This document shows, one piece after another, positions 31,115 to 62,503 of a stretch of 64,000 nucleotides of DNA. The notes beneath the pieces were generated by a model. The model was not told the origin of the DNA. It saw nothing but the letters and a program-made list of their open reading frames with translations, and did no database searches. This DNA comes from Aequorivita xiaoshiensis (GTDB lineage: Bacteria > Bacteroidota > Bacteroidia > Flavobacteriales > Flavobacteriaceae): the NCBI RefSeq assembly GCF_022008395.1, contig NZ_JAIRBB010000006.1:1-64000 (forward strand), written 5' to 3'. The position numbers and the translations under genes were made by a program. The stretch's first letter is position 1. Every line of letters starts with the position of its first letter.

Positions 31115-33925
31115 TTAATCAATTTTAGCAGCACGTAACCTCAGTGCATTTGTAATAACTGACACCGAACTAAAACTCATTGCTAAAGCCGCAATCATAG
31201 GAGACAACAGGATTCCAAAAACTGGGAATAGCACTCCTGCGGCAACTGGAACACCTAAGGTGTTGTAAATCATTGCAAAAAATAGATTTTGCTTAATGTT
31301 TCTCATCACCTTTTCACTTAGTTGAAACGCTTTTACAATTCCGTGTAAATCACCTTTAACCAAAGTAACTCCGGCGCTTTCTATAGCTACATCAGTTCCC
31401 GTTCCCATCGCAATCCCCACATCGCTTTGAGCCAAGGCAGGAGCATCGTTAATTCCGTCACCTGCCATTGCAACCTTTTCACCTTTAGCTTGTAGCTCCT
31501 CTACTGCTTTAAGCTTATCTTGAGGTAGCATTTCTGCCTTAAAATCTTTTAGATTTAATTCCGAAGCAACCGCCTGCGCCGTATCCTGATTATCGCCAGT
31601 GAGCATAATAACCTCAATTCCTTTTTCTTGAAGATCAGCAATAGCTTTTTTACTGGTTGCCTTTATTTTATCAGAAATAACAACATAACCTACTACATTA
31701 CCTTCCACAGAAAGCATAGGAACAGTTTTACCTTTTTTCTGTTCTTCTGAAATATTAGCTTGAAGAGAATTAGCAATTTTCGCACCAGCTTCTTCCATCA
31801 TCTTTTCATTACCAAGTGCCACCTTTTTACCATTGATAATTCCGGTAACCCCTTTACCTGTAACTGAATTAAAGTCTGTAGTTTTAAAGCCACTTGCTTC
31901 TGTGTTTACTTTTTTCTCTTTTCCATATTTAACAGTGGCATCAGCAAGCGGATGCTCACTATTCTGATTGAGTGAAACTATATATTGAAGCACCTCATCT
32001 TCAGAATAATTTTCAGACGAACCCACTTTTTCCACCGAAGGTTTTCCTTCTGTAATTGTCCCTGTTTTATCTATGATTAACACATCAATTTTATTGAGTG
32101 CTTCAAGAGATTCGGCATTTTTAATCAGCACTCCATTTTGAGCTCCTTTCCCAACACCTACCATAACCGACATTGGCGTAGCAAGTCCTAATGCACACGG
32201 ACATGCGATAATTAAAACTGCGATAGCATTTACTAACGCATACACATAAGAAGGTTCTGGACCTATTAATGCCCACACCACAAAAGTGATGATAGCCACA
32301 ATAACCACTATCGGCACAAACCAGCCCGATATTTTATCTGCTAACTTTTGAATTGGAGCGCGACTCATACTAGCTTTATTCACCATATCGATAATCTGAG
32401 AAAGTAAAGTATCGCTACCAATTTTTTCAGCTTTCATAACAAAGGTCTGCTTTCCATTAATAGTTCCCGAGCTTACTTGGTCACCAACTGTTTTAGTTAC
32501 AGGCACAGGTTCTCCGGTTATCATCGATTCGTCTATCGAGCTTTCGCCTTCAATTATACTACCATCTACAGGAATTTTCTCACCAGGTTTTACACGAAGT
32601 TTATCTCCTAGTTGAATATCATCTATCGAAATTGTTTCTTCTACACCATCTACAACTCTTACAGCCTTATTAGGCGCGAGTTTTAGTAATTCTTTTACTG
32701 CAGAGTTTGTACGGTTATGAGCTCGTGCTTCTAGCACCTGCCCCATTAGCACCAAAGTAAGAATTACAGCAGCCGATTCGAAATAAACGTGAACACTTCC
32801 CGATTCAGTTTTAAATTGAGAAGGGAAAAATTCTGGAAACAACATTCCAAAAACACTGAAAATCCAAGCGACACCAGCACCAATTCCAATTAAGGTAAAC
32901 ATATTTAAGTTCCACGTTTTTATGGACCTATAGGCGCGTTCAAAAAACATCCAAGTAGCATAAAACACTACCGGAATAGACAAAACGAATTGAATCCAAT
33001 TCCAATATTTCATCGGCATCCATTCATACAACGGATTGTCAGGAATCATTTCAGACATTGCGATAATAAATATTGGAATTGTGAAAGCAACGGCTATCCA
33101 GAACTTTTTTAGCAGTAGTTTATAACCACTGTCGTCTGCTGCTTCATCTGCAGAATTACTTGCCATAGGCACTAAATCCATTCCGCAAACTGGGCAATCG
33201 CCAGGCTTATCATAGGTTTTGTCACCTTCGCAGTGCATCGGGCAATAAAAAGTTCCTGAGTTACTTTGGTTTGCTATTCTCTCTTCCTTTCGCGCTTGGT
33301 GTCTAGCAGCGGCCTCTGTATCGCCTTTTACAGCAATACTATAACTCCCTCCGTCGGCCTCGAAAGCCTTTTCAAAAACTTTTAAAGGAATCTGATTTTT
33401 CATTTCAATTACAGCTTCTCCTTTTTCTAAGTTTACCGACGCTCTCTCGACTCCTTCAATTTTGTTTAAAATCTGCTCTACGTGAGTTCTACAACCATCG
33501 CAAGTCATCCCGTGAATTTGATAACTCTCTTTAACAGCAGTTGTGTTACTTGGCTGAGCTACTAAATGCATACCACAAACAGGGCAATCACCCGGTTTAT
33601 CATATGTTTTATCACCTTCGCAGTGCATAGGGCAATAATAAACCTGAGAACCACTTAAAGTGTGTTCTTGCGCCTGTTTATCATCCTCATGCGAAACCTT
33701 TTTCTCAGTTTTTTTATGAGAGGAAATCTTGTATCTACCTCCATCTGATTCCAAAGCATTTTCAAAAACTTTAAGTTCAATATGCCGCTCCATTTCAATT
33801 ACTGCTTCCCCTTTTTCAAGGTTTACAGATGCCTCAGAAACACCATCAACATTATTGAGTATATTTTCCACGTGACTTCTACACCCATTACAGGTCATTC
33901 CGTCTATAGTATATTTATGTGTCAT
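31115..33925 (-). CDS. copA: Cu+-exporting P-type ATPase with duplicated HMA-HMBD N-terminus
   Basis: P1B-1 ATPase that pumps Cu+ out of the cytoplasm. The 936 residues begin with an HMA domain (Cys 12, Cys 15), a heavy-metal-binding YCPMHCEGD...CPVCGM module (about 97-120), a second HMA domain (Cys 142, Cys 145) and a second metal-binding module (about 227-250). The ATPase core has TGEP, CPC at 575-577 in a transmembrane helix, DKTGT at 619-623 and GDGINDAP. The YN of MIYNTLG and MSFSS near the end are the Cu+-type membrane ligands. The N-terminal pair is an internal duplication with a period of about 130 residues. Confidence 0.95.
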
Positions 33926-34035
33926 TGTTATTTGATTTTAAATCTATAGTTTAGTGAATTACTGTATTAAAATTTTTATACAGCAAAACCTACACTTCAA
34001 GTTAATGAAATATAAGTACAAATAGATTTAAGTAA

Positions 34036-34455
34036 TCAAATCAAGAAGGTCTCGTAGAGAATATTTAAATCCCGTTCGAGAGGTGGCGGATTGTATTCCG
34101 CATAGAAGATTTTTTGAAAAGAAGTTATATCAACTTCTTGAAGAACAAATACCGATACGAATGTTGCGACAAAAGTTTTGTTCAACTTAACATCAAAAGA
34201 TGCCTTTGTAAAATTTTCGTCGGTTTGTATTTTAGTTATATGGTCATCACAACAATCTGGCGCTTCAGAAGCTAAGTTTTTCATCTCGCAATTAGCGTCG
34301 GAAGGCTCTGCATCCATTTCGCAGGAAAGCTGTTTTTTGGCTAATGTAACCTTAGAGGTGATTTCCATACCCCCACAAAAATGTTGAGCATAAGCTATCC
34401 CTGAACTGCTAGCGAGCATCAGTATGGACAAGAATATGGATATCACTTTTTTCAT
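34036..34455 (-). CDS. HYC_CC_PP family small secreted protein
   Basis: A 139-residue exported protein matching the NCBI HYC_CC_PP family, of unknown function. The signal peptide ends near IAYAQ; then come QHFCGG (Cys 27), Cys 45, Cys 56, the DCCDDH pair (Cys 68-69) and the C-terminal YNPPPLERD motif that gives the family its name. I use the ATG at 34455 (MKKVISIFL); the longer frame from 34473 begins upstream of a -7 promoter motif. Cys/His/Asp-rich composition and location beside copA suggest metal binding. The gene begins only 19 bases after a strong terminator. Confidence 0.75.
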   Translation of the reverse strand: MKKVISIFLSILMLASSSGIAYAQHFCGGMEITSKVTLAKKQLSCEMDAEPSDANCEMKNLASEAPDCCDDHITKIQTDENFTKASFDVKLNKTFVATFVSVFVLQEVDITSFQKIFYAEYNPPPLERDLNILYETFLI

Positions 34456-34462
34456 TATAGCG

Positions 34463-34470
34463 CAAAAATA
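34463..34470 (-). promoter_or_regulatory. TAnnTTTG -7 element of the HYC_CC_PP gene
   Basis: On the minus strand TATTTTTG followed by C sits 7 bases before the ATG at 34455, predicting a leaderless or nearly leaderless mRNA. It directly follows the terminator of the preceding gene. Confidence 0.55.
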
Positions 34471-34473
34471 CAA

Positions 34474-34508
34474 AAAAAAGCCTTCCGAAATATTCGGAAG
34501 GCTTTTTT
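34474..34508 (-). terminator. terminator of the DUF3347 lipoprotein gene
   Basis: AAAAAAGCCTTCCGAA (34474-34489) pairs with TTCGGAAGGCTTTTTT (34493-34508) around a 3-base loop. It lies 4 bases after the stop codon at 34513 and separates it from the HYC_CC_PP gene. Confidence 0.92.
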
Positions 34509-34512
34509 GTAA

Positions 34513-35064
34513 TTAGTTAATTTCTGAATCAACCCTACCACATTTCAGCATCTTATCACCGAAATAAGGGTTTAGAATATTTTTACCACTGCTAATCCAA
34601 GCAGCACCTTTATTATTAAAAGCCATTGGGCAATATTGTTTGTAAAGTGTACCAGATGCTAAGGCTCCTTCAAGCATACCTTCAATCCCTGCAGTAAGAG
34701 TTTCAAAATGCTCACGTTGTACATTAACATCCTCTGATGCAGCCATAGCAGCAACTGCCGATTGAGTAGCTTCATTTACTTCTACTTCTTTAATAAGAAC
34801 TTCAAGCTTAGAAGATTCTGTAGCTGTTTTTTCAGCATCAGTATTCACTAAAGCTTCTTGAACTTCAATATACTGATCGAAAATAGCCTCTACCTTGGGG
34901 TCGTTGAATTCAGCTTCTCTTTCTGAAATTTCATAAACTTCTTTTTTAGAAGCAGTATTATCAACAGTGACTACTTCAGGTTCTTCCACCTTTTTGTCAT
35001 TGTCCTTACAAGATGTAAATGCAATAGCTGTAAACGCTAAAACAACAAAAGATAACTTTTTCAT
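34513..35064 (-). CDS. DUF3347 domain lipoprotein
   Basis: A 183-residue lipoprotein (lipobox FTSC, Cys 19) with a helical middle and the DUF3347 C-terminal signature LYKQYCPMAFNNKGAAWIS...NPYFGDKMLKCG. Related domains are fused to CusB-type copper efflux adaptors, so a periplasmic metal-binding role is plausible: the Cys, Met and His of YCPMAF and MLKCG would be ligands. A Glu-rich linker follows the lipobox. It is upstream of the copper genes on the same strand but has its own terminator. Confidence 0.82.
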   Translation of the reverse strand: MKKLSFVVLAFTAIAFTSCKDNDKKVEEPEVVTVDNTASKKEVYEISEREAEFNDPKVEAIFDQYIEVQEALVNTDAEKTATESSKLEVLIKEVEVNEATQSAVAAMAASEDVNVQREHFETLTAGIEGMLEGALASGTLYKQYCPMAFNNKGAAWISSGKNILNPYFGDKMLKCGRVDSEIN

Positions 35065-35100: not shown

Positions 35101-35535
35101 TCAATTTGAATTGTACTTATGAAAATAAAAGGCAGGAAGTAATATTAAAAGAAATAACGGTTGAATTAAAAAACGACGTACATAGAAAAGTACAAAATGA
35201 CTCGATGTTCCGTCTGAAGTGTAAATTATTAAACTGAATGCAATCATTAGGACCACGAAAAGTATTGCATAAAGAAACAATGAAATTTTAATCACTTCCC
35301 TATTTTTAAATAGTAACGATATAATTCCAAGTGAAACAACAGAATTTAGAATAAATCGAAATGCTGTATTCCCATACATCAAATACACATCCATATCAGG
35401 AAGAGGCGCTGTTTTATAATCGGATTTAAAAAAATTCAATAGAGGATCGTAAAAAAGAGTGTCTTCAAAAGCGCGAACCAACACTAATATAATAGTGAGC
35501 GTTAAGGCTAATAATATTCTTATAAATTTACTCAC
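35101..35535 (-). CDS. Exosortase F system-associated membrane protein
   Basis: A 144-residue polytopic membrane protein found next to exosortase XrtF in Flavobacteriia. It has about four hydrophobic segments and the conserved RAFEDTLFYDPLLNFFK near the N-terminus. I start it at GTG 35533-35535: the GTGA overlaps the XrtF stop codon TGA, giving the classic 4-base coupling, and the protein then begins MSKFIRILLALT. The frame from 35589 would overlap XrtF by 58 bases. The role is unknown; it may assist the exosortase or its substrate in the inner membrane. Confidence 0.85.
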   Translation of the reverse strand: MSKFIRILLALTLTIILVLVRAFEDTLFYDPLLNFFKSDYKTAPLPDMDVYLMYGNTAFRFILNSVVSLGIISLLFKNREVIKISLFLYAILFVVLMIAFSLIIYTSDGTSSHFVLFYVRRFLIQPLFLLILLPAFYFHKYNSN

Positions 35536-36089
35536 TTTACAAGATTTGTTTCCGGATTCACCTTTAGCATTCGCACCCATATCATCCACAGCATGAATAC
35601 AAAAGCATATATTATTACTGGAAAAACTACGGCGTGAAGCACGTTTTCATACTCAGGAAATTTATAAAGTGCTACAGTTAAAATAGCTATTCGAATAATA
35701 TTTATTACGTAAATTAACACTGCGCCTGCAAAGATGTAAAGAATAGTTTTCTTGAATTTTTCTGCAAATGCAATAATAAAGGCTACAAAAAGTATAATTA
35801 CACTAACCGAGTTACAACCTTCTACAATATTTACGGTGTATCTCCCATCTATTGTCAACAACATCCCCTCTACAGTTTGCGCTGGATTTAAAAATGCAGC
35901 ATAGCCAAAGGTATTCAACACAGCATTGCTCTGCTTCGCAACTAGGTGTGTGATATAATCAGGAAAAAAAGGACCGTTTTTAGACAAATTCAAATAAACG
36001 GAATACAGAAAGCCTAGCAACAAATACGTACCGATAAAAAGACCTACAAAGCGCAGCACTGATTTGTATTTCAACAAGAGTTCTTTCAC
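35532..36089 (-). CDS. xrtF: Exosortase family protein XrtF
   Basis: Membrane-embedded cysteine transpeptidase-like enzyme that, in exosortase systems generally, cuts C-terminal sorting tails (PEP-CTERM-like) and passes proteins to the cell envelope. The 185-residue polytopic protein shows the expected triad: Cys 92 in EGCNSVSVIILF, Arg 133 in NIIRIAIL and His 152 in VLHAVVFPVIIY. It is coupled by a 4-base overlap to its associated membrane protein. No recognisable sorting-tail protein, glycan gene cluster or PrsK/PrsR system is nearby in the window. Confidence 0.88.
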   Translation of the reverse strand: MKELLLKYKSVLRFVGLFIGTYLLLGFLYSVYLNLSKNGPFFPDYITHLVAKQSNAVLNTFGYAAFLNPAQTVEGMLLTIDGRYTVNIVEGCNSVSVIILFVAFIIAFAEKFKKTILYIFAGAVLIYVINIIRIAILTVALYKFPEYENVLHAVVFPVIIYAFVFMLWMIWVRMLKVNPETNLVK

Positions 36090-56686: not shown

Positions 56687-59600
56687 TTATCGTTTTAAAG
56701 TGAAATGTCCTGTAAACACTTTCGGCATATCATCTTCCTTATATTCAACTCTAAACCAATAATCACTTGAAGGCATTGGCTTTCCGTTAAACGTTCCATC
56801 CCAACCTTCTCCAATTGGACTTAACTGTTTTAGAAGCTTTCCGTAACGGTCAAAGATGAAAATCTTAGCAGTAGGATCTGCAGTTCCAATTCCAATAATA
56901 TTCCAAGTATCGTGGTAGCCATCCTCGTTTGGAGTAAAATATAATGGATAATCAACTACTCCAACTTCAATAGTTACGCTTCCACATCCGTTTACATCTC
57001 TTATAGTAACAGTATGTATACCAGGTGAAACTCCCTCGAAAACATTATTTGTTTGGAAAGGTCCATTATCTAGCTGATATACATATTCTCCTAATCCTTC
57101 AGCAGAAACTTCAATGGCATGTGGATTAGCAAAAGCAGACGTTATAACTTCAGCACTATAAACTAAAGGTGGAGATGAAACCACAACAGTTGTTACAGCC
57201 GTAATTTCACATCCCGAAGCTATTTCGGTTATAATTACACTATACTCACCTGCTTCTAATGCTATTATAGAAGCCCCAGTTTCTCCAGGAATCATAACCC
57301 CATTCAATAACCATTGGAAATTATAATTAATAGGGTTTAATCCCGTGTCGATTAATGGAGGAGAAGTCTGGCCATCTTCGTTTTCAATAGGATTGCCATT
57401 CTCATCCACACATAACCTGTATTCGTCTTCTAAATTTACTCTAGGTAGTTCCTGAACTTTTAAAATAACTTCAACTACTTCAAAACATTTTGGCTCGTAT
57501 TGGTTTTCGCTATTGGTAACTCTAGCATAAATTACCTGAGGATTGATTACGTTATAGTAAGGAAATGAAATTGCGTTTACATTATTTAAAGCATTTTCAT
57601 AAGTTTCAAAATAATTAATTAAATAAATATTTGGATCTTGTCCTGCTAATATTTGATTACGAAGCGTTACAACATCAGGATTCGTTAAGTCTTCTAAATC
57701 AAATTCGGCGATGCCATCGTTTGCCTCAAAGTTGTCGCAAACCATAAGTGGATTTGGGGTATTTGCAATAGCGCCTTCTTGAACAATTAGTTCAAAACTT
57801 TGATTTCCACCTATAAAACAACCCGTTAGTGAATTTTCAATTCGCGTATAAATAGTTTGTGGAGATTCTGGGTTTCCTGCTAAATCTCTGTTTTGATGTG
57901 CAGTCGTATTTACAATTTGATTAATTCCGTTGGCAGCATCAGTAGCATCCAAATAAAAACTTACCATTAAATTAAAAGTTGATTGCTCTCCTAATATTTC
58001 TGGAATCTTAGTGGTTAGATCGAATTCTGCTACACCATCTGTATTAATTTCACAAATCATATAAGGTGATACTATAGCACTATCATCCGGTACAGGATCC
58101 ACAATTAATTCAAGTTTCACAATTTCAAAACAAGAACTATCTGGATTACTCCCTTTAACATATACAGTCTGTGGGTTGCTAATATTTTGATAGCTTTCTG
58201 GGTTTGGAATTTGGTCTACTCCGTTAAATGCATTGTCGTAACTTTCGTAATACGTTAAATCCCATGCACCACCGTTAAGAATCACCTCTTCTCTAATTGT
58301 TAAATCAAATATTTCAACTTCATCGTCAGGTCCAGGACCAACCACAATATTCTCATCACACAATCTTATAGGTTGTGGCTCTACTAAGTCTGGATTAGGT
58401 AACACTCGTAACAATAATGTTGTGAACGCAACACAGTCTGTTGAGCCGTCTTCCACTCTTACATAAAGAGTTTGTGGATTTACAGTGTTAACGAACGCAG
58501 TATCCGGATCAATCTTATTAATATTATTTTGAGCATCATTTTCATTTAAAAAGTAACTAACTCCCATTCCTGGAGCACCATTGGTTATTTCGGCATTCTT
58601 AAGTGTTAAATCAAATGTTGTAAATCCATCGTTTATAGGACCTAAATCCTCACAAAGCTCAAAAGGAGTAGGATCAACTATAGATACAGCTCTAGAGACT
58701 ATTAGGGTAAACTTTCCTACAGCAATACAATCAGATCCATCGATATAAGCTAACCGAACAAAAATATCTTGTGGGTTTGTAACGTTAGTATAAGTTTCGG
58801 GCGCACCAATTGGATTCAGTCCTGATTGAGCATCTTCAAGAGTTGTGTGGTACGACAATTCTAGTTCCGTAGGATCTTGTGAGCCATAAATTAAAGGCTC
58901 TTGCACCGTTAAATCAAATTCCGCAAAACCATTACCATCAGGATCACAAGCTACCAAGTCTGGTAAATCTAATGGTACCATCGGACTTGGTTTTACAATT
59001 AAATCTAATGGCACTACTTTAAAACATCCACTTGTATTTGGAGGTAAATCAAAAGAAGCTCTAGCGTAAATTGTCTGGTTAAAAGCAACAATATTTTGAA
59101 ATGGAGACGCCAATGGGAAAGTTCCATTATTCGCATCGTTCAAAGTTTCGTGATAAGTCACCACTATAGAAGGATCCCCTCCTGCAATTTCATCGCTTTT
59201 TAGGGTCAAATCAAATTCGGCAAAACCATCGTGGTCTTCGTCACATACTTCTAATGGAGTAGGCTCTACAACTGTAGGAACAGGAAGCACCCTTAGCAGT
59301 AACTCTGTAGTTGCCACACATCCGGTTTGACCTTCTACAGCCACATAGATTGTATAAGGTGTAATTCCTAATCCACCACCATCAACTGGGTTGGTATATG
59401 TTGTTGGATTTGGAATTGGGTTGTCATTCTGTAAATCAATTAAAGTTTCAAAATACCTAACAGTTAAGGTAGCATCGCCATTTGTGATAGATGCGTTATT
59501 GGTTGTAAGGTCGAAAGTTGAAATTCTATCTGTATCACTTCCACTTTCCAAATCATCACAAAGCTCCATGGCATCGGGATCTTGAATTATTGGAAATTCA

Positions 59601-62503
59601 CCTAGAATCAAATCAAACTCACTAATTCTTGCACAAAGAGTAATATTATTTTCTAAGCGAACCCATATTGTTTGACCAGCACTTGTAAAAGCATTTGGAG
59701 TTAAAATAGGGTTTTGACCATCTATTGCTTCTTGTAAAAGGGTGTGATATGAAATAGTAAAGTCGGTTGTTGGTTGACTTCCATAAACAAAAGGAGTGTT
59801 TATAGTAAGGTCAAAAACTGCTTCACCACTTCCATCTTCATCACAAGCAAAAAGGTCTCCAAATTCCGAAGTAGGTTGATCTGGCAATGGGTTTACAATA
59901 AGTGTAAGTTCAACAACAGCGAAACATCCTGATGAAGTATTTTCTACTCTAGCCCAAACGGTATCAGTATAAGGGACATTGTTTAAATATGGACCAGTAA
60001 TTTCACCAGCTCCACCTGCTTGAGCAAGTGCTTCCAGTGGATAATACTTAACGATTACATCAGGTTCACCACCTATAATTTCGTCGTCTTTTAAGGTAAG
60101 GTCAAATTCAGCAAAACCATCATTATTATCATCACATACCTCTAAAGGTGTTGGCTCAACTGGTGTAGGTAATTGATCGACCACAAGAGTTAACGTAACA
60201 AGTTTTTTACAACCAAAACCGTTAGAAACACGAGCAATTACAGTTTGTGGATTACTAGGTGCTGGTGGAATTGCTCTGTTTTGATAAGCTTGTGGATTTG
60301 CAATTGGATTGTCTGCCAATTCATCAGCTGCAGTTTCGTACCAGGTAACAGTTACGTTAGTATTTCCACCCGTAATTTCAAAATTTCTTGACGTTAAATC
60401 GAATGTACTAAGTTGATCGGTAGGGGTACTCCCATTTACCGTATCATCACATAAGTGATAATCTTGAGGCTCTATAGCTATAGGCTCTGGATCTACAAAT
60501 AATTGAAGTTCTACAATATCATAACATCCAAAACTTCCATTATTAGGTGTTGTATTAGTGGCGTTTCCTACGCCAAGAACATAAATTGTCTGAGTGTTGA
60601 TTGTTTGATTAGTAAAAGCTCCTGGTGTAGCAATTGCTTGTGAGTAGTCAGGAGCCGTGAGTGCCACTTCCCCAGCATCAATTGCCTGCTGTTCATTTAC
60701 ATAATAATACAAATCGTATTGGGTTGGATCTAATGCTCCTAAAATTTCTGCTGCTTTTGAGGGTAAATCAAAAACTGCGTATCCATCTTGGTCATCATCA
60801 CAAATACGATAAGGTGTTGGCTCGGTTAAAATTGGACTGTCACGAACCTCTAATGGCAACTCAACAATGTTATAGCAACTTGTATTTCCACTTATTACTC
60901 GTGCATATACACGATCGTTATAAGGGTTTCGGTTTTCATAAGGATCCATTAATTCACCCTCATTAGTTTGCGCATCCAAATAAGTATAGTGATAAGTAAC
61001 TGTAAGTGCTGGATCGCCACCTGTAATGTCATCATCTGCATCATGAAGTGTAAACAAAGTAAACCCATCGTTACCTGGGTCACAAGCTATCAAAGCATCA
61101 GGAGTAGCATTTACAATTGGAGGGCCATCCAAAATAATATCGAATTGAGTAGTTTCAAAACAAGTATTGTCGTTGTTATTTTGAACTCGAGCATATATTG
61201 TTGTAGGACTAGCTGCCACTGTATAAGGCTGCGGTAAAGAATTTGTCCCAGCATCAGCCTCCCCTTGTGTGCTGTGATAAGTAACTGTATAATTTAAAGG
61301 ATCCTGGCTATCGAGAATTGTTGCTGAGAATACAGCTTCTAAATTAATCACTTCTTGACCGTCTCCATCTTGATCACACAAGTAATGTGGTGAAGTTGGA
61401 GCAGTAGCTGTGGCACCTTCGTATATCAATTCAAATGTATCAATGGCATAACAATTTCCTTCTTCGTTTTCAATGCGAACCCAAATTGTTTGACTTGTTC
61501 CCACAATAGGATAAGCATTAGCTGGGTTTATTGGATTAACACCAGATTCTGCTTGCAATAAATTTAAGTGATATGTAATTAAAAAGTTAGGGTTTTGAGC
61601 TCCCAAAACAACGTTGTTATTCTGAGTTAAATCGAAAATACCAGGTGTGGAACCATTATCACAAATTGAAAGATCTAGAGGAGGGTTGGCAATGATAGGT
61701 TGCGGATTAGTAATAATTTCAAATTCTTTAATTTGATCACCTCCAAGAGGGAAACTAATTGTAACTCTATAATCACCCCCATCAGTAACTGTGATAGTTG
61801 GAAAATCTCCATTAAAAATGGTCACAAAACCAGTTCCATCATCATATTCCCATAAATAGTTATTAGCTCCTTGTATCTCAGCATCTATAACAAATTCGTC
61901 ACCCACACATCCTGTTTGCGTAGTTACAATAGAACAGTCTGTTGAACCACTATTCGGATTCCCCGCATTGGTTTGCTCTAATTTTATAAAACCGGGACTT
62001 TGATTGTAATTGGTTATAACCAAAACATAAATTTCACCCGGTAGCGCATTTAAAATTGTAAAGTTCTCAATAGGTTGAGCAGAATAACTACAAGCAACTT
62101 CGTTAAATGATTGCAGTTGTGTATAATCACAAAGATCATCTCCTTCCTGAAAAGGCCCCCACGCAATAAAATCAACATCTAATCCCTGACCTATAGGGTC
62201 ACCATTTGCATCAAAAGCCGTATTTTGAACTATCTCAAAATCTAACCTTCCTGCCTGATCTACTTGTAAATAAAACCAAGCTGGATATGGCTGGGTAAAC
62301 AAACAACCATAATCTGGACCAGCTTCTGCCGTTGCATTACAATTTGGGTCTTGATTATTACAATTAGGAAATATTAAGGCTTGATCTCCAGCACAAAATG
62401 GCTCGATAGTTGCACAAGTACTACCCTGTGCAAAAGCAGACATTCCTGATAATAAAAAGGAAATAATTATTACTAATAAATACGGGGAATTTTTCTTTGT
62501 CAT
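56687..62503 (-). CDS. T9SS type B sorting-domain protein with 14 tandem repeats
   Basis: A 1938-residue exported protein. It has a signal peptide (about 1-26, ending AFAQ), an N-terminal domain with paired Cys (to about 190), an Ig-like region (about 195-265), and then 14 repeats of about 105 residues. Each repeat begins with a Cys-Asp-rich acidic box followed by FDLT (for example VCDDNNDGFAEFDLT) and ends with a TIYVRV...C strand pair. The acidic boxes resemble calcium sites. After another Ig/SprB-like segment comes the C-terminal type B domain (YFTPNEDGYHDTWNI, IFDRYGKLLKQL, GWDGTFNGKPMPSSDYWF). The protein should be secreted by the T9SS and act as a surface adhesin or gliding-related filament. 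Confidence 0.93.
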   Translation of the reverse strand: MTKKNSPYLLVIIISFLLSGMSAFAQGSTCATIEPFCAGDQALIFPNCNNQDPNCNATAEAGPDYGCLFTQPYPAWFYLQVDQAGRLDFEIVQNTAFDANGDPIGQGLDVDFIAWGPFQEGDDLCDYTQLQSFNEVACSYSAQPIENFTILNALPGEIYVLVITNYNQSPGFIKLEQTNAGNPNSGSTDCSIVTTQTGCVGDEFVIDAEIQGANNYLWEYDDGTGFVTIFNGDFPTITVTDGGDYRVTISFPLGGDQIKEFEIITNPQPIIANPPLDLSICDNGSTPGIFDLTQNNNVVLGAQNPNFLITYHLNLLQAESGVNPINPANAYPIVGTSQTIWVRIENEEGNCYAIDTFELIYEGATATAPTSPHYLCDQDGDGQEVINLEAVFSATILDSQDPLNYTVTYHSTQGEADAGTNSLPQPYTVAASPTTIYARVQNNNDNTCFETTQFDIILDGPPIVNATPDALIACDPGNDGFTLFTLHDADDDITGGDPALTVTYHYTYLDAQTNEGELMDPYENRNPYNDRVYARVISGNTSCYNIVELPLEVRDSPILTEPTPYRICDDDQDGYAVFDLPSKAAEILGALDPTQYDLYYYVNEQQAIDAGEVALTAPDYSQAIATPGAFTNQTINTQTIYVLGVGNATNTTPNNGSFGCYDIVELQLFVDPEPIAIEPQDYHLCDDTVNGSTPTDQLSTFDLTSRNFEITGGNTNVTVTWYETAADELADNPIANPQAYQNRAIPPAPSNPQTVIARVSNGFGCKKLVTLTLVVDQLPTPVEPTPLEVCDDNNDGFAEFDLTLKDDEIIGGEPDVIVKYYPLEALAQAGGAGEITGPYLNNVPYTDTVWARVENTSSGCFAVVELTLIVNPLPDQPTSEFGDLFACDEDGSGEAVFDLTINTPFVYGSQPTTDFTISYHTLLQEAIDGQNPILTPNAFTSAGQTIWVRLENNITLCARISEFDLILGEFPIIQDPDAMELCDDLESGSDTDRISTFDLTTNNASITNGDATLTVRYFETLIDLQNDNPIPNPTTYTNPVDGGGLGITPYTIYVAVEGQTGCVATTELLLRVLPVPTVVEPTPLEVCDEDHDGFAEFDLTLKSDEIAGGDPSIVVTYHETLNDANNGTFPLASPFQNIVAFNQTIYARASFDLPPNTSGCFKVVPLDLIVKPSPMVPLDLPDLVACDPDGNGFAEFDLTVQEPLIYGSQDPTELELSYHTTLEDAQSGLNPIGAPETYTNVTNPQDIFVRLAYIDGSDCIAVGKFTLIVSRAVSIVDPTPFELCEDLGPINDGFTTFDLTLKNAEITNGAPGMGVSYFLNENDAQNNINKIDPDTAFVNTVNPQTLYVRVEDGSTDCVAFTTLLLRVLPNPDLVEPQPIRLCDENIVVGPGPDDEVEIFDLTIREEVILNGGAWDLTYYESYDNAFNGVDQIPNPESYQNISNPQTVYVKGSNPDSSCFEIVKLELIVDPVPDDSAIVSPYMICEINTDGVAEFDLTTKIPEILGEQSTFNLMVSFYLDATDAANGINQIVNTTAHQNRDLAGNPESPQTIYTRIENSLTGCFIGGNQSFELIVQEGAIANTPNPLMVCDNFEANDGIAEFDLEDLTNPDVVTLRNQILAGQDPNIYLINYFETYENALNNVNAISFPYYNVINPQVIYARVTNSENQYEPKCFEVVEVILKVQELPRVNLEDEYRLCVDENGNPIENEDGQTSPPLIDTGLNPINYNFQWLLNGVMIPGETGASIIALEAGEYSVIITEIASGCEITAVTTVVVSSPPLVYSAEVITSAFANPHAIEVSAEGLGEYVYQLDNGPFQTNNVFEGVSPGIHTVTIRDVNGCGSVTIEVGVVDYPLYFTPNEDGYHDTWNIIGIGTADPTAKIFIFDRYGKLLKQLSPIGEGWDGTFNGKPMPSSDYWFRVEYKEDDMPKVFTGHFTLKR

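Follow-up and report, generated by a model that had tools for sequence, protein, structure and literature searches.

Related exosortase and sortase systems

Exosortase substrates end in a short motif, a membrane helix and a basic end, and the enzymes cut near the motif. In the PEP-CTERM/XrtA system the motif is PEP and the substrates are usually larger and more numerous, whereas the precursor linked to XrtF in this study has only ~67 residues. The T9SS sortase PorU, which works on β-domain tails at the outer membrane, belongs to a different family from XrtF, a helical membrane protein. The XrtX/PID-CTERM system (NF046081, NF046082, NF046080) resembles that of XrtF in that the two enzymes are kin, their partner proteins are weakly related, and both accompany proteins in which P-[IVL]-D precedes a C-terminal helix and basic tail. 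It differs in that the PID protein is encoded beside the enzyme at many XrtX-like loci, whereas the XrtF-type protein is unlinked, lies at ribE and has a looser tail (PIDD, PINQ, PLDT). With PEP-CTERM/XrtA (EpsH), the XrtF system shares a polytopic Cys-Arg-His enzyme, a substrate with motif, helix and basic tail, and a link to exopolysaccharide and biofilm, parts of this likeness being stated in the available text of PMC7468200, PMC12188702 and PMC10936215. The likeness to PorU and the PorZ attachment complex is one of mutant phenotype, which falls in the same row as that of the xrtF, partner and Fjoh_0651 mutants in the available part of PMC10936215. The targets of XrtF are stated to be unknown in the available text of PMC12188702 and PMC10936215. 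Our literature search found no mention of "PID-CTERM" and no paper joining any two of XrtX, XrtY and exosortase, and three papers mentioning XrtF together with exosortase. For the tail of the XrtF candidate described below, the name PID-CTERM is already in use in NCBIfam (NF046080).

The xrtF gene and its partner

The window, by which we mean the whole 64,000-nucleotide stretch of DNA analysed, encodes on its minus strand an exosortase family protein XrtF of 185 amino acids (35532..36089; GTG start). The protein reaches 212.1 bits with the NCBIfam model TIGR04128 (cut-off: 90) and 52.5 bits against the exosortase/archaeosortase family model TIGR04178 (cut-off: 23), placing it in both families, and falls outside XrtX with 120.6 bits against NF046081 (cut-off: 170). 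XrtX, XrtH and XrtY are the next-nearest NCBIfam models after TIGR04128, and the Pfam EpsH model covers part of the protein (38.1 bits). The best named relative, at 90% identity, is that of Aequorivita sinensis, and the general exosortase model has one match in the genome of the window (3.06 Mb, 83 contigs, 99.94% complete). The codons for the catalytic Cys92 (35814..35816), Arg133 (35691..35693) and His152 (35634..35636) could all be located on the minus strand. Among 80 distinct aligned exosortase rows (96 with duplicates), the window XrtF included, the Cys and Arg are present in 80/80 and the His in 77/80. The triad that the first-pass annotation had described as intact is thus confirmed, and the active site is retained in nearly all of these homologues rather than lost in most, the outcome which that annotation had set against its own reading. 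The His column holds Tyr or Gln in three relatives (G243, G129 and G190; loci L027/L284, L029 and L032), which may reflect an alignment shift. The AlphaFold2 model of XrtF (mean pLDDT: 92.1) consists largely of helices, residues 65-88 forming a small strand region; neither a fold search with this model (E≤0.001) nor a sequence search gave a PDB match.

The exosortase F system-associated membrane protein, hereafter the partner, is encoded directly adjacent on the minus strand (35101..35535). We take it to comprise 144 amino acids from the GTG at 35535, the listed 162-amino acid frame from 35589 being the mechanical longest open reading frame (ORF). It scores 153.3 bits against TIGR04127 (cut-off: 35), the adjacent partner supporting in turn the assignment of XrtF to its family, and shows weak kinship to the XrtX-associated protein (21.4 bits). 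Its start overlaps the xrtF stop in a GTGA (35532..35535, minus strand), and a partner gene is present at 77/79 distinct exosortase loci (92/95 with duplicates), in agreement with the earlier proposals that the two genes are coupled and kept as a pair. The AlphaFold2 model is all-helical (mean pLDDT: 93.6). A fold search yielded no PDB match at E≤0.001, and the sequence search a single match with an E-value of 0.62. On the 3′ side of the pair (31115-35064) are genes for a DUF3347 protein, an HYC_CC_PP family protein and what we presume to be a heavy-metal P-type ATPase. A protein that by eye resembles the HYC_CC_PP family also follows the partner in F. johnsoniae (L243), L016, L019 and L022, suggesting that the xrtF pair accompanies metal-handling genes in several loci.

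No protein carrying a sorting signal had been noticed in the window, and this was borne out within a scan for membrane helices with a basic tail of ≤14 residues behind them, which returned three short ORFs, all antisense to longer ORFs, and no longer gene. A P-x-D-G codon pattern occurs five times (0.41 expected), never in the flagged ORFs. A window-encoded substrate was therefore rejected on the outcome of the helix-plus-tail scan. At 56687-62503 lies a gene for a repetitive 1938-amino acid protein, the end of which we take to resemble a T9SS type B sorting domain.

Exosortase and PID-CTERM pairing in the wider class

A class-wide search with TIGR04128 matched 172/295 genomes, 45 of them above its cut-off. 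At no fewer than eight of the 30 loci listed, the exosortase gene is flanked by one whose small, secreted product has P-[IVL]-D-G-G followed by a helix and basic residues at its C-terminus, a tail named PID-CTERM in NCBIfam (NF046080). Across the 295 genomes, both the exosortase and PID_CTERM were matched in 136, the exosortase only in 36, PID_CTERM only in six and neither in 117 (p=3e-41), so that the exosortase is matched in 136/142 PID_CTERM genomes. The 36/172 exosortase genomes that lack PID_CTERM at a match cut of 0.01 include seven of the Flavobacteriaceae or the same order, four of which (G065, G101, G194 and G221) were later matched by the alignment described below. Among the matches listed, 59/120 exosortase rows have a PID_CTERM row within 1.5 kb, where ~0.1 would be expected assuming 3.5-Mb genomes. 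The E-values of these 120 rows reach about 2e-17, the PID rows too are confined to the matches listed, and for 82/120 exosortase rows the genome also has a PID row among them.

A candidate precursor encoded beside ribE

In the genome of the window, one motif-bearing match to NF046080 was obtained (24.1 bits against a cut-off of 26; E-value: 1.8e-4), besides two weaker ones (E-values: 0.78 and 1.0) confined to the final part of the model. The former corresponds to a gene for a 71-amino acid protein on contig C11 (234495-234710; L046:1396-1611), convergent to that for riboflavin synthase. Scored as a protein it reaches 23.2 bits (cut-off: 26) and hence falls below formal PID-CTERM membership. 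It opens with a signal peptide and a proline-rich stretch, after which come LPID, a single membrane helix and a basic tail, and the complete arrangement is found in the frame L046:1396-1608 and its relatives, signal peptides and helices having been assigned by eye and hydropathy. A second genome of the same genus carries the gene in the same place (57% identity), and comparison of 65 codons (pN: 0.26; pS: 0.63) would fit purifying selection, with dS near saturation. The precursors are 57-86 residues long (median: 67; 61 rows), with ~20 residues between an approximate signal-peptide cleavage point and the last motif residue (median of 60 rows; range: 11-34) and a net charge of ~+4, at the lowest 0, after the helix. 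The motif, P-[ILV]-[DNS], is the best conserved part, with an invariant Pro and Ile and Asp at ≥90% (59 rows); PID occurs in 54/61 rows, placing the family outside PEP-CTERM. The mature part outside motif and helix is variable in the alignment. Such proteins look like exosortase substrates reduced to the bare essentials. The ORFs of the two weaker NF046080 matches were set aside as they lack a P-I-D motif, namely a 132-amino acid multi-helix ORF in L048 and a 77-amino acid ORF (L047:1339-1572) with an N-terminal hydrophobic stretch, helix and basic end. The latter, whose neighbors read as genes for SCO1 and a DUF420-type protein, may still represent a second substrate.

Alignment A1 was built from 59 small proteins drawn from the NF046080 matches, the model itself having matches at E≤0.1 in 79/149 Flavobacteriaceae genomes and exceeding its cut-off in 42 of them. 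L087 was left out because its start is unclear, and L107 and L131 because ribE was not seen and the sequence is odd; L096 and L146 were retained even though their loci showed no ribE, and no candidate small protein was found in the L147 locus. XrtF is present in 94/149 Flavobacteriaceae genomes, of which 91 match A1 at E≤1e-8, 93 at 1e-5 and all 94 at 1e-4, while at every cut three of the 55 genomes without XrtF match A1 and 52 do not (Fisher p=1e-32 to 5e-37 across cuts). This is the co-occurrence that a PID-CTERM-like substrate should show. Since A1 derives from NF046080 matches, a fairer figure is given by the XrtF genomes which contributed no row to the alignment, 32/35 of which match at 1e-8. 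The weakest three XrtF genomes also carry the gene beside ribE, as a PID-like ORF in G325 and G304 and as a tblastn match to the small protein of the window genome in G347, and the three genomes with a PID match only are drafts (84, 88 and 88% complete). The first-pass annotation had regarded the target of XrtF as unresolved, a statement now overtaken by this PID-CTERM-like candidate, usually beside ribE and matched in 94/94 XrtF genomes. The conserved substrate family elsewhere in the genome that it had named as the finding which would count against it very probably exists in these putative substrates.

Within the genus Flavobacterium, as inferred for 249 genomes, both proteins were matched in 209, XrtF only in 11, the PID protein only in eight and neither in 21 (p=2e-16). 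At an A1 cut of 1e-4 the discordant genomes are thus 11/220 with XrtF and 8/29 without, the latter eight being drafts of 76-96% completeness in 130-400 contigs. Several A1 matches, six or seven, occur in some Flavobacterium genomes (G641, G620 and G591), pointing to local expansion of the small-protein family. On a ribE+pdxA tree of 59 XrtF loci and 28 XrtF-less loci, the XrtF state changes five times, at least three of these on well supported branches, so that few independent events underlie the co-occurrence table of the family. An independent-pair test on this tree had too few pairs for p to reach 0.05.

The gene position supports the assignment independently of sequence similarity. Loci with a short protein, 30 from the search output and others fetched for their short frames, include ribE in 58/62 cases, strong and sub-threshold matches alike, so that position lends independent support to the weak matches; ribE is likewise found in 30/30 A1 loci of the family and 28/30 of Flavobacterium. 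As a control, the ribE region was inspected in 30 genomes without XrtF, where ribE was found in all and the next gene, which we take to be pdxA, was still adjacent in 28. Within 600 bp of ribE, a convergent PID-like ORF occurs in 55/58 and 30/30 loci of XrtF genomes (85/88, the two sets sharing genomes) and in 0/30 loci of XrtF-less genomes, where a single looser match (L269) lies on the same strand as ribE.

The F. johnsoniae counterpart

Genome G574, a single contig of 6,096,872 bases, was identified as that of F. johnsoniae by two exact coding sequence lengths, the 447 bp of its partner gene and the 2283 bp of a gene for a 760-amino acid protein being those of the Fjoh_1449 and Fjoh_0707/porZ inserts, respectively, in the available part of PMC10936215. 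Its sole A1 match at E≤0.001 is an 80-amino acid protein beside ribE, for which NF046080 reports no match. Between the small gene and porZ are 60 raw ORFs, or 55 or 56 without those of non-coding composition, which makes the small gene Fjoh_0651 or 0650. The neighbors are riboflavin synthase and what we presume to be a DNA methyltransferase gene. Together with genes reading as a Vsr-like nuclease and helix-turn-helix proteins, the methyltransferase gene lies between the small gene and a VOC-type gene (G574:C1:711290-717204), in a block that looks like an inserted defence-type island; the VOC-type gene lies close to the small gene in relatives, and the names mce and vsr are likewise our own reading of the sequences. 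The small gene is the unnamed one among the nearby small ORFs and fits the 434-bp fragment with promoter given in the available part of PMC10936215. Gene position and size thus make it very likely that the F. johnsoniae protein is Fjoh_0651.

In the available text of PMC10936215, deletions of Fjoh_0651, xrtF and Fjoh_1449 have an identical row in Table 2, with reduced sand colonization, greatly reduced biofilm and abolished zorbs, while planktonic growth and colony spreading are unaffected. The porU, porZ and Fjoh_0334 deletions fall in the same row and sprA and porV differ by one column, so that the row is not specific; only the sprA strain, among nine, forms non-spreading colonies (PMC10936215, as available). 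The same text lists Fjoh_0651 as hypothetical and leaves XrtF substrates to future work, and our literature search found Fjoh_0651 named in that paper only.

A proposed model for XrtF function and alternative explanations

We propose that XrtF and its partner probably process a dedicated small precursor encoded far away, in the present genome the 71-amino acid protein convergent to riboflavin synthase. Judging from its anatomy, the signal peptide would carry the precursor across the inner membrane, in which the C-terminal helix would stay with the basic tail inside. XrtF, employing Cys92, Arg133 and His152, would cut at or near LPID, as would be expected of its family, and a proline-rich peptide of ~20 residues would remain. 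In the most tentative step, XrtF would couple this peptide to a lipid-linked or exported glycan. The product would be needed for normal biofilm and zorbs and not for colony spreading, provided that Fjoh_0651 is the precursor. We infer the substrate status, cleavage site and glycan transfer from these features, and the shortness of the precursor, which leaves little after processing, counts against this explanation. About one candidate substrate per genome can be named for XrtF, tied to a deletion strain with the same phenotype row. Were this candidate correct, a short peptide would be the mature product, changing the view of what exosortases make.

A more specific form of the proposal, in which XrtF is a peptide-tagging enzyme that ligates the proline-rich peptide of ~20 residues to an amino-sugar glycan before export, appears doubtful at present. 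If correct, a peptide-decorated surface polysaccharide would hold flavobacterial biofilms and zorbs together, and exosortases would be glycan decorators, beyond protein anchoring. Twenty XrtF/XrtX-like neighborhoods outside the family, hand-picked from the class-wide TIGR04128 matches listed, with one protein per cluster compared against Pfam, harbor the partner in 17 loci, PID proteins in ten and a housekeeping-looking gene in six. A bacterial sugar transferase (PF02397) was found in five, a PglD-like acetyltransferase in six, a DegT-type aminotransferase (PF01041) in five, a Wzz-type chain-length protein in six, ABC exporter parts in five and four, and a glycosyltransferase in four. The sugar transferase, PglD and DegT genes are, however, found in loci without an adjacent PID gene and the Wzz and exporter genes in loci with one; this separation of sugar-activation genes from the PID gene counts against glycan transfer. 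Should XrtF instead be a plain protease which shares the first two steps and frees the peptide as a signal or pheromone, with no glycan involved, the combination of signal peptide, short peptide and cut tail would resemble peptide-pheromone precursors, and an effect on biofilm and zorbs, with planktonic growth and colony spreading unaffected (PMC10936215, as available), would be explained. The sugar transferase, aminotransferase and polysaccharide export genes around related exosortases, and the variability of the mature part outside motif and helix, argue against such a free peptide, which we consider rather unlikely.

The small protein might also remain uncut, as a third subunit or assembly factor of the XrtF-partner complex, the true substrate having no obvious tail. 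A mature part of only ~20 residues, a copy number of about one per genome, which suits a subunit as well as a substrate, and the identical mutant row in the available part of PMC10936215 would all accord with this. Its motif, helix and basic end are, however, those of exosortase substrates, the motif is its best conserved part, and some genomes encode several PID-tailed proteins, of which the longer ones read differ in their mature parts, making a subunit role improbable. Action of XrtF on T9SS cargo or the T9SS attachment complex, with the small protein a bystander lost alongside, would place the xrtF, partner and Fjoh_0651 deletions in the phenotype row of porU and porZ, as is the case (PMC10936215, as available), and a T9SS type A tail (TIGR04183) is present on a protein near one XrtF/XrtX-like gene (L288). 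The absence of an unlinked gene from 52/55 genomes without XrtF is not the behavior of a bystander, and of the nine strains only that of sprA is non-spreading, a weak argument as porU and porV also spread (PMC10936215, as available); we regard this explanation as very unlikely. Most improbable of all is that the co-occurrence stems from shared ancestry only, both genes having been lost a few times in large clades. The mere three to five XrtF state changes on the ribE+pdxA tree would permit it, but exosortase and PID protein are directly adjacent outside the family, the two co-vary inside one genus, and both the tail anatomy and the independent genetics (PMC10936215, as available) likewise speak against it.

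Genomes with a second exosortase

A second exosortase is encoded in 8/149 Flavobacteriaceae genomes, namely G432, G343, G378 and G313 (L084, L086, L091 and L093), G437, G425, G415 and G418, all of which also carry XrtF and an A1 protein. The two that were scored are XrtX-like (126.6 and 119.1 bits), below the cut-off of 170. In 7/8 of these genomes a longer PID_CTERM match lies close beside the second exosortase by coordinates, and the four longer proteins read there end in PLDGG, a helix and a basic tail. Longer PLDGG proteins (seven loci) were kept out of A1, as they are not located at ribE (0/7) and four adjoin the second XrtX-like exosortase. The presence of two enzymes with two tail variants agrees with enzyme-specific tails.
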